A DNA stretch of 64,000 bases from Parvibaculum sedimenti. Lineage in GTDB: Bacteria > Pseudomonadota > Alphaproteobacteria > Parvibaculales > Parvibaculaceae. Shown here one piece after another: positions 6,237 to 25,939 of this stretch; position 1 is the first letter of the stretch, and each line of letters starts with the position of its first letter. The translations under genes and the position numbers were made by a program. A model generated the notes under the pieces. It was not told the origin of the DNA and searched no databases. It was given only the letters and a program-made list of their open reading frames with translations. The stretch covers positions 186,001 through 250,000 of the forward strand of contig NZ_WESC01000005.1 of assembly GCF_009184905.1 (NCBI RefSeq), given 5' to 3'.

Positions 6237-6242
6237 CGGGCC

Positions 6243-6292
6243 CGGGCCACCTCCCCCCACCGGGAGGCATCTATCTGGAAGGGTAGTCAAAA
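6243..6292 (+). ncRNA. Candidate serC leader RNA (serC motif)
   Basis: The short leader holds two consecutive hairpins: CCTCCC/GGGAGG (6250-6267), then CTATC/GGGTAG (6271-6286), which buries the GGAAGGG ribosome site. A structured serC motif of this compact type, overlapping the ribosome site, has been described upstream of serC in alphaproteobacteria. I match it by position and architecture, not by alignment. It would act on translation initiation. Confidence 0.5.
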
Positions 6293-14483: not shown

Positions 14484-14524
14484 AGCACTTTACGCAGCAG
14501 GCTCAAGGCGTAAACTCGCGCCAT

Positions 14525-14612
14525 TCCGAGGGGTGTCCGAATTCGTTCGGGCTGAGATGGCCGAAAAGCCGAACCCTTTGAACCTGATCCGGGTCATGCC
14601 GGCGAAGGGACG
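14525..14612 (+). ncRNA. TPP riboswitch (THI element) of thiC
   Basis: The conserved blocks are all present: GGGGTGTCC (about 14530), GCTGAGA (14551-14557), then ACCCTTTGAACCTGATC and GGGTCATGCCGGCGAAGGGA. Binding of thiamine diphosphate folds this RNA and should lower thiC expression. The thiC ATG follows about 50 bases after the aptamer, with GGAGATCC as ribosome site. Confidence 0.95.
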
Positions 14613-14652
14613 GACAACCATCCCCCGCTATCCCCGGATTTCCGAAACCTGA

Positions 14653-24480: not shown

Positions 24481-24883
24481 GTCTGACGATACAGCCGCGC
24501 CTCTCTCCGGGGAACCGGCAAAGCCGCCTTTGTCGAATAGCGTTAAAGCCGCGATCCTGATGCTCGTCACCATGGGCCTTGTTCTCGTGGCGGGTTTCAT
24601 CTTCGTGCTGGTGGTGGTGGTCAAACGCAGCCACCAACCGTCCGAGCAGGCGGCGGGCTTCGCCGGACGCTTCGGCGTCAGCGATATCCATGTCGCGCCG
24701 GGCGAGACGGTGAAGAGCGTTACCATGGCCGATGGCCGTATCGCCATTCAGATTGCCGACGACAAGAATCAGGAAATCATCATCGTCAGCCCCAAGACCG
24801 GGCAGGAGATCGGACGCATTCGCCTGCGGCCCTTGAGCGATCTGGCTTCCCGCGAATTTGTACCGCCGCAAGACGGGAACTGA
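24479..24883 (+). CDS. Small membrane protein of unknown function
   Basis: A 134-residue protein with a short acidic N-terminus, one strong membrane helix (about residues 24-50: ILMLVTMGLVLVAGFIFVLV), and a periplasmic-looking domain ending in HVAPGETVKSVTMADGRIAIQ and KTGQEIGRIRLRPL. Its ATG at 24479 overlaps the divergent rluD start. The stop overlaps the next gene's ATG (TGATG type), so these two are co-translated. Confidence 0.8.
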   Translation: MSDDTAAPLSGEPAKPPLSNSVKAAILMLVTMGLVLVAGFIFVLVVVVKRSHQPSEQAAGFAGRFGVSDIHVAPGETVKSVTMADGRIAIQIADDKNQEIIIVSPKTGQEIGRIRLRPLSDLASREFVPPQDGN

Positions 24884-25359
24884 TGCATCGCCCGCGCAAG
24901 CTTCTCGAACTGACGCTTGCGCGGCGCGCGCGCCTTCTCATCGCTGCCGATGCGCGGGCCCGCTTCCCCGAGGAGTGCTGCGGTCTTCTCATCGGCGTGC
25001 TGCGCGCAGGCAAGGCCCATGTGACGCGGGTTGTTCCGGCGGCGAATGTCGCACCACCCGCAAGGCGCAGACGCCATTTCGAAATAGATCCCGGCGCGCT
25101 TTTCGCCGTCCGGCGCACCCTGCGCGAGAGCGGGGCGACGCGGCATCGCGAAGCGATTCTCGGCTATTTCCATTCGCATCCCGGCGGAAATGCGCTTCCG
25201 TCGGGTGCAGATCTCGCGGGCGCGCATGAAGTGGGGCTGGTGACGCTGATTGCGGCGCCGCCGCGCAAGGCGGGTGTGGTGCCGCTGCGCGCCTGGCTGC
25301 GACTCGGCGGCGGGCCCTCGAGCCGCTTCCGGCCGCTGAAGATCACAACAGATCTCTGA
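24883..25359 (+). CDS. JAMM/MPN domain metalloprotease-like protein
   Basis: A 158-residue single-domain protein with the JAMM zinc signature: a glutamate in EECCGLLIG near residue 28, then HSHPGGNALPSGAD (H-x-H-x10-D) near residue 97. Bacterial stand-alone JAMM proteins cut isopeptide or C-terminal tags on small ubiquitin-like or sulfur-carrier proteins; the substrate here is unknown. It overlaps the membrane protein gene upstream. Confidence 0.85.
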   Translation: MHRPRKLLELTLARRARLLIAADARARFPEECCGLLIGVLRAGKAHVTRVVPAANVAPPARRRRHFEIDPGALFAVRRTLRESGATRHREAILGYFHSHPGGNALPSGADLAGAHEVGLVTLIAAPPRKAGVVPLRAWLRLGGGPSSRFRPLKITTDL

Positions 25360-25399: not shown

Positions 25400-25499
25400 G
25401 GGGGGGAGGGTGCCGCCTGTGCCGGGGGAGGAGGGAGGAGGGCACAGGCGGCAACTACTGAAAGCCTTCGATCGGGGAGGAGATCGATCGAACTTTCGT
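25400..25499 (-). ncRNA. Candidate anti-Shine-Dalgarno small RNA
   Basis: Read on the minus strand, a strong promoter (25506-25534) is followed by two hairpins. The first has a 7-bp stem TTCGATC/GATCGAA with loop GATCTCCTCCCC. The second has a perfect 13-bp stem TGCCGCCTGTGCC/GGCACAGGCGGCA with loop CTCCTCCCTCCTCCCCC. A further CCCTCCCCCCC follows. Exposed CUCCU loops that pair with ribosome sites are a known design in alphaproteobacterial small RNAs (the CUCCUCCC-loop families of Rhizobiales and Rhodobacter). No U-rich terminator is obvious, so the 3' end is uncertain. The family is not proven. Confidence 0.65.
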
Positions 25500-25505
25500 A
25501 GGTCT

Positions 25506-25534
25506 TGTATCGCGCCTTCATGACAAAATGTCAA
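25506..25534 (-). promoter_or_regulatory. Promoter of the candidate small RNA
   Basis: On the minus strand TTGACA (25534-25529), 17 bases, then GATACA (25511-25506). This is near consensus for the housekeeping sigma factor. It points into a region with no protein gene, with a predicted start near 25499. Confidence 0.75.
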
Positions 25535-25863
25535 AGCTAAAAATGGTGCGATGCAAAATGCTCCCCGTGCTGAGTGGTGCCGGGGTATACTTGATAAGTC
25601 ATTGTTATTAAATGGGTTAACGCCGTTATTTGAAAATAGGACTAATACACCTACTTAAAATCTGCGCCCGTTTGCCGCAGTTCATAAATGAAAATATTGA
25701 TTTCAGCGACCAGCGGACGACCGCTTGCAACGTGCCCGCAGAGACGATTTGCCACCGGCGTCCGCCGTTCCGCCTGGCCGCCTCGCTTCCCTGCCTGCCA
25801 TGTAGCCGATTGGGCTTGATCGTCACGCGCAACCGTCCTATACGGAGCGCCCGAACTGGTCAC
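25535..25863. other. Intergenic stretch without a supported gene
   Basis: This is A/T-rich near 25600-25700 and holds no frame with family features. It contains GGTTAAC elements near 25616 and the plausible upstream region of tRNA-Glu. I see no further feature. Confidence 0.6.
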
Positions 25864-25939
25864 GTCCCCATCGTCTAGTGGCCCAGGACGTCGCCCTCTC
25901 ACGGCGAAAACAGGGGTTCGACTCCCCTTGGGGATACCA
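25864..25939 (+). tRNA. tRNA-Glu (CTC)
   Basis: A complete cloverleaf: acceptor GTCCCCA/TGGGGAT, anticodon stem TCGCC/GGCGA with loop CTCTCAC (anticodon CTC, reading GAG), T-arm AGGGGTTCGACTCCCCT, and an encoded CCA at 25937-25939. Confidence 0.96.

Follow-up and report, generated by a model that had tools for sequence, protein, structure and literature searches.

Results

A two-hairpin element on the minus strand beside tRNA-Glu

The window analysed here is a stretch of 64,000 nucleotides from Parvibaculum sedimenti, the genome of which measures 3.70 Mb. Between a gene for a JAB/MPN metalloprotease-like protein and a tRNA-Glu(CTC) gene, both on the plus strand, the minus strand carries a promoter-like sequence followed by two hairpins with anti-Shine-Dalgarno loops and a CU-rich tail (Table 1). 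An earlier note, made from the letters of the window alone, had pointed out the TTGACA-N17-GATACA arrangement, the two hairpins and their loops, the perfect 13-bp stem and the neighbouring tRNA-Glu; its coordinates and letters all proved correct, and the tRNA gene indeed lies close by on the opposite strand. The ends of the small RNA (sRNA) body are placed by promoter spacing (5′) and by the drop in conservation, to a mean identity of 0.54, just downstream (3′). An open reading frame of 250 amino acids that runs on the minus strand from 25521 was rejected: it starts between the −35 and −10 elements and crosses the hairpins, and the aligned relatives do not keep its ATG. Elsewhere in the window, a serC leader (6240-6291, plus strand, 58 bits) and a TPP riboswitch (14519-14627, plus strand, 74.9 bits) score above their Rfam gathering scores.

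Table 1. Features of the sRNA locus and of the second palindrome site (window coordinates unless a contig is named)
Feature	Position	Strand	Remark
Upstream box TTGCATCGCA, at about −58	25547..25556	-	TTGCRRCGCA across the genus
Palindrome TTGACATTTTGTCA, TTGACA-N3-TGTCA	25521..25534	-	overlaps −35; putative TetR-family operator
−35 element TTGACA	25529..25534	-	read from the sequence
−10 element GATACA, 17-base spacer from −35	25506..25511	-	GATATT in many relatives
sRNA body: two anti-Shine-Dalgarno hairpins and CU-rich tail	25400..25500	-	R1 match 110.7 bits, E=1.6e-21
Hairpin 1, loop AUCUCCUCCC	about 25456..25500	-	CCUCCUCCC in most relatives
Hairpin 2, perfect 13-bp stem TGCCGCCTGTGCC/GGCACAGGCGGCA, 17-nt loop CUCCUCCCUCCUCCCCC	25411..25453	-	
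CU-rich tail CCCTCCCCCCC	25400..25410	-	kept in genus, mean identity 0.88
JAB/MPN metalloprotease-like gene	24883..25359	+	convergent neighbour, context; not at the same place in all relatives
tRNA-Glu(CTC)	25864..25939	+	divergent neighbour, context, not part of the sRNA
Second palindrome copy, tetR promoter	G000:C4:37121-37134		about 40 bases upstream of aligned gene start

Stems vary by compensation around fixed loops

The minus-strand RNA is predicted to fold at -42.8 kcal/mol (z = -6.4), a value that none of 200 shuffled sequences equals, and the same two hairpins appear in the minimum free energy, centroid and consensus structures. The loop of hairpin 2 holds a CCUCCUCCC-type motif twice, and that of hairpin 1 reads UCUCCUCCC in the window (8 of 9 letters). 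Within Parvibaculum and one sister genus, 98% of the alignment cells are standard pairs, and eight pairs are changed on both sides (34 cells), which is reached by 0 of 500 shuffles and compares with at most three such pairs when the genus-level alignment is slid as a control. Across the order, 19 of 22 pairs have changed on both sides (99 cells), again a count that no shuffle among 500 attains and one far above the slid controls, in an alignment fitted to the covariance model, which favours the count of compensations. Compensating changes, which the earlier note had named as the sign to look for among relatives, are present in both stems. In the genus the two loops are 0.96 and 0.95 identical, the arms 0.72-0.91 and the flanks 0.54, with stem 2 still 0.9 identical at this range. 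Variable but paired stems around fixed anti-Shine-Dalgarno loops are the pattern that selection for loop pairing should leave.

The element recurs across the order Parvibaculales. A DNA search recovered it from 24 more genomes, all in this genus or a sister genus; one extra match, in G097, is doubtful. A covariance model built from 20 sequences (R1) has one match in the whole genome of the window (E = 1.6e-21, the E-values of home-made models being rough), and none of the remaining exact CCTCCTCCC sites of that genome lies in a comparable two-hairpin setting. Of 40 genomes from the order, R1 matches a locus in 36, representing five of five genera, and in all 27 of good quality (>=90% complete, <=5% contamination); the set of 40 was unchanged when the search was made by order. 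Among 385 genomes sampled from the class, R1 matches are limited to members of the order. Metagenome-assembled genomes (MAGs) dominate the relatives; those recovered by a DNA pattern are recorded mainly as Parvibaculum or Rhodobiaceae MAGs, and P. indicum DSM 25305 is the one named strain among them. On the rluD side the neighbours are kept in most loci and in every one of the five genera; opposite them, tRNA-Glu is kept in two genera. Order-wide matches together with kept synteny argue for vertical inheritance of the gene and against a mobile repeat.

Several weaker matches were set aside. An Azoarcus MAG (L075) has the palindrome and a CU run without hairpins, which we attribute to chance; L100 and L026 match weakly and have neither promoter nor loops; and the sub-threshold class-wide matches L171, L174, L178 and L190 show no convincing design. 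Two further loci are recorded as observations. At L097:1001-1079 (G002:C2) there are two anti-Shine-Dalgarno hairpins with loops CUCCUCCCC and AUCCUCCCUCCCC on entirely different stems, without the promoter palindrome or the synteny, and these are either a chance occurrence or a diverged cuckoo RNA. At L024:1456-1554 (G007:C60; CAJXOU010000060.1) the same stem arms enclose a reverse-complemented hairpin 2 loop, GGGGGAGGAGGGAGGATGG on the sRNA strand, which is either a real inversion across inverted-repeat arms or a flip in the MAG assembly.

The −35 element lies in a palindrome shared with a tetR promoter

The palindrome that spans the −35 element occurs twice in the genome, compared with no occurrence of a reversed control, and its two sites are the sRNA promoter and the promoter of a tetR gene. 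The product of the latter (L166:9411-10151) has a TetR_N domain (E = 3.9e-15; L101, L166), and the nearest named TetR models (ScbR-type, FadR, FasR) score far below their cut-offs. Beside the R1 match, the exact palindrome sits at the sRNA −35 in 33 of the 40 genomes of the order; two g5 genomes have it with one mismatch, and the genomes that lack it are incomplete. An orthologous tetR gene (48-81% identical) stands beside one copy of the palindrome in 39 of the 40, the exception (G020) being 57% complete. Among TetR homologues from other families of the class (38-48% identical), 8 of 22 loci have the exact palindrome just upstream, where chance would give about 0.0002 per locus by our estimate (ten fixed bases, 180 positions).

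In TetR biology generally, operators that lie over a −35 element usually mean repression. Given that the same palindrome stands upstream of the orthologous tetR, TetR most likely represses both its own operon and the sRNA. As read from the sequence, the palindrome has the layout of a TetR-repressor target in that it lies over a promoter and is common to the regulator's own promoter. The simplest reading is that it would be the operator of an autoregulated TetR, with the sRNA as a second target in Parvibaculales. This putative operator over the −35 element is new and was beyond the reach of the earlier note.

The main alternative keeps the anti-Shine-Dalgarno sRNA of cuckoo type and treats the TetR link as coincidental: the palindrome would be a strong −35 element or the site of another factor, and control would run through the TTGCRRCGCA box. 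Because the consensus −35 hexamer lies inside the palindrome, part of the palindrome's conservation is indeed promoter conservation. The upstream box is conserved as well as the palindrome, with a mean identity of 0.90 against 0.54-0.56 around it in the genus alignment; it is a possible activator site, and its position is close to that of the LsrB site on the alpha-r14 and AbcR1 promoters (PMC10746234, PMC8844928). The LsrB consensus GCAT-N3-TG-N3-T was tried at the box; GCATCGCACCAT does not match it, and no claim is made for it. A −35 element cannot explain the TGTCA half, however, which falls in the promoter spacer where the neighbouring bases are only 0.59 identical; nor would coincidence account for a full palindrome that is found just twice in the genome, once at tetR, and that is shared by the tetR homologues of other families. 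We therefore regard a coincidental link as unlikely, while TetR control and control through the upstream box may act jointly.

A few bases downstream of tetR, and co-oriented with it, lies the gene for a protein of 341-350 amino acids (L166:8351-9403, minus strand) that has no Pfam or NCBIfam match, followed by a luciferase-like monooxygenase gene (PF00296, E = 3.3e-48); a molybdopterin-binding aldehyde oxidase/xanthine dehydrogenase-like gene lies upstream. The order has 34 other loci in which the 341-350 amino acid gene directly follows tetR. Both genes behind tetR in the window genome have purine-rich Shine-Dalgarno sequences, and the predicted duplexes between the sRNA loops and their start regions reach -26.7 and -21.9 kcal/mol, where the 1% cut set on random 40-mers of the window is -24.1 kcal/mol; for the 341-350 amino acid gene the values across the order run from -11.7 to -31.1 kcal/mol. 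Duplexes of this predicted strength are ordinary for any purine-rich Shine-Dalgarno sequence and do not amount to specific targeting, although feedback between the TetR operon and the sRNA is possible. That the tetR mRNA itself is a direct target is no more than a guess: a moderate GGAGG-type pairing near its start codon in the genus is absent in g2 and g3.

Two observations concern further sites of this kind. In g3 genomes (L108, L111, L134, L140, L142) a third TTGACAGTTTGTCA site lies upstream of a gene starting ATGGACATGAGTTTCTCG, which, judged by eye from its first codons, looks like an acyl-CoA dehydrogenase gene and which would widen the TetR regulon in that genus. The second is in L130 (G023:C235:3240-3253), from a Parvibaculum MAG that R1 does not match: the order of a TTGCGATGCA box and then TTGACAAGATGTCA repeats that of the sRNA promoter, and some 80 bases further on stands a strong terminator stem with its T-run. 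A promoter of this type may serve a different small RNA there.

Strand and 3′ end of the RNA

A T-run comes after hairpin 2 in three other genera, g3, g4 and g5 (GGCCTTTTTCATT and GGCGGTTTCTTTTTGCC are examples); it has the look of an intrinsic terminator and assigns the RNA to the minus strand. The T-run is absent from Parvibaculum and g2; in Parvibaculum, tails of the type CCCTCCCNCTCCC stand in its place, and our guess is that the RNA there ends by the action of Rho on the C-rich tail. A GC-rich hairpin 2 with a T-run in three genera, preceded in g4 by an A-run as well, and located about 50 bases beyond the stop codon of the convergent JAB-domain gene, could also be taken for a bidirectional terminator between that gene and a minus-strand transcript, the CU-rich loops being incidental. 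Termination needs no hairpin 1 with a fixed anti-Shine-Dalgarno loop, no conserved promoter and no upstream box, however; the loops are more conserved than the stems, and in many relatives the sRNA stays where the JAB gene is missing from the locus, so that this explanation is very improbable. That the functional RNA is instead the plus strand, a purine-rich GGAGGAGG stem-loop sponging anti-Shine-Dalgarno sRNAs or 16S rRNA, has a parallel in the Caulobacter sponge CrfA (PMC12559287) and fits the folding of the plus strand (z = -3.6), but the promoter and the T-run indicate the minus strand, on which more G-U wobbles are read (20 against 11, a modest difference), and we give this possibility next to no weight. 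The claim of the earlier note that an anti-Shine-Dalgarno sRNA is encoded on the minus strand is strongly supported by stem compensation, fixed loops, the conserved promoter and the T-run in three genera.

Relation to known sRNA families

No Rfam family matches the locus at its gathering threshold, and a weak plus-strand match to hammerhead HH9 (18.3 bits, threshold 52) was dismissed as chance. The earlier note had left family membership open and suggested a covariance-model search against alphaproteobacterial sRNA families. This search gives weak matches, all below threshold, to ar14 (RF02344; 12.1 bits on the window, 36.2 bits and E=0.003 for the best relative, gathering score 58.8) and to CcsR1 (RF02791; 10.5 bits on the window, 33.5 bits and E=1.5e-4 for the best relative, gathering score 65.3). 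The design is that of the cuckoo, alpha-r14 and CcsR group, but membership of ar14 or CcsR1 in the Rfam sense is not reached.

The group of cuckoo RNAs, which was reportedly introduced by Reinkensmeier and Giegerich in 2015 (RNA Biol 12:197), offers a close comparison. Its members have two to four hairpins, in which the loop motif is conserved and the helices are not (PMC4504443); RSs0680a of Rhodobacter has two, and the Sinorhizobium members have three or four (PMC3927594). Here, too, consecutive hairpins within that range present an unpaired CCUCCUCCC-type motif in every loop on stems without conserved sequence, the one departure being the UCUCCUCCC loop of hairpin 1 in the window where most relatives have CCUCCUCCC. 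With alpha-r14/NfeR1 of Sinorhizobium and relatives the RNA shares the CCUCCUCCC anti-Shine-Dalgarno loops, variable stems, a sigma70 promoter with a conserved upstream box and a monocistronic gene of its own (PMC10746234), but alpha-r14 has three hairpins in about 123 nt where we find two, and its promoter is CTTAGAC-N17-CTATAT with LsrB and NtrC sites in place of TTGACA-N3-TGTCA. With CcsR1-4 (RSs0680a) of Rhodobacter sphaeroides and the CIN1 loci it shares a two-hairpin unit with a GC-rich second hairpin and CCUCCUCCC loops; whereas CcsR RNAs form tandem copies behind a DUF1127 gene under an RpoHI/RpoHII promoter (PMC10253847), the single copy found here has its own promoter, and DUF1127 (PF06568) has no match in the whole genome under conditions in which an E. 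coli positive control matched. AbcR1/2 (alpha-r15) and the alpha-r8 sRNAs (MmgR, SisA-D) likewise use anti-Shine-Dalgarno sequences to block translation of many mRNAs, but they have other structures, carry single-stranded motifs in addition to loops or in place of them, and depend on Hfq (PMC8844928, PMC12559287); neither gives an Rfam match at the locus.

A broader model (R2) recovers CcsR-type tandem arrays (L167, L183, L173) with E-values of about 1e-6 locally and 2e-5 in the class search, and the sequence before one of these arrays reads by eye as the C-terminus of DUF1127. Since shared loops alone could give part of the R2 and Rfam scores, common descent is likely rather than proven. We conclude that the sRNA probably shares its descent with cuckoo anti-Shine-Dalgarno sRNAs (alpha-r14/NfeR1, CcsR), and we file it as a solitary new variant of the cuckoo design, a member of neither ar14 nor CcsR1. 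Hairpins with CCUCCC-type loops, in arrays or in pairs that end in a terminator and score below the Rfam thresholds, were also seen at L169 and L170 (small-genome family f18), L189 and L191; they are probably undescribed cuckoo-type RNAs in other families.

Discussion

Anti-Shine-Dalgarno sRNAs are widespread in Alphaproteobacteria. We think it likely that the locus described here encodes one of them, a minus-strand RNA of about 100 nt and cuckoo design that would be held under TetR repression and would pair with Shine-Dalgarno regions. Transcription would start at the sigma70-type promoter, the −35 element of which is embedded in TTGACA-N3-TGTCA, and would be repressed by TetR, together with the operon of tetR, the 341-350 amino acid gene and the luciferase-like monooxygenase gene, until a ligand appears. 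The two hairpins of the expressed RNA would then present CUCCUCCC, imitating the 3′ end of 16S rRNA, and their loops would pair with the Shine-Dalgarno regions of several presumed target mRNAs and block ribosome loading. Occlusion of this kind by such loops is established for NfeR1 (PMC10746234) and has likewise been established for AbcR1/2 (PMC8844928). The literature that we could search holds no account of the locus or of a TetR operator at such an sRNA, and no paper on Parvibaculum sRNAs was found in it; P. lavamentivorans may be among the hits of the original cuckoo and CcsR papers.

More tentatively, and with somewhat more doubt than conviction, we suggest that TetR and the sRNA form a very small regulon throughout Parvibaculales, in which one ligand would free both an oxidoreductase operon and the RNA, the RNA would perhaps act on the Shine-Dalgarno sequences of that operon in a feed-forward or feedback arrangement, and the T-run would have been exchanged in Parvibaculum for a third anti-Shine-Dalgarno segment. 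If true, this would be a cuckoo-type RNA with a single chemical input, in place of a sigma-factor or LsrB/NtrC input.

By its weak matches to the ar14 and CcsR1 models alike, the sRNA falls between the alpha-r14 and CcsR extremes of the group, and it shows that a solitary gene without DUF1127 can have the cuckoo design. The gene is present once in the window genome, has orthologues in every good-quality genome of the order and lies outside the current Rfam models. Accompanied by a candidate repressor and operator of its own, in a species that can be cultured, it bears on which signals control anti-Shine-Dalgarno sRNAs and on how such promiscuous sequences stay selective.
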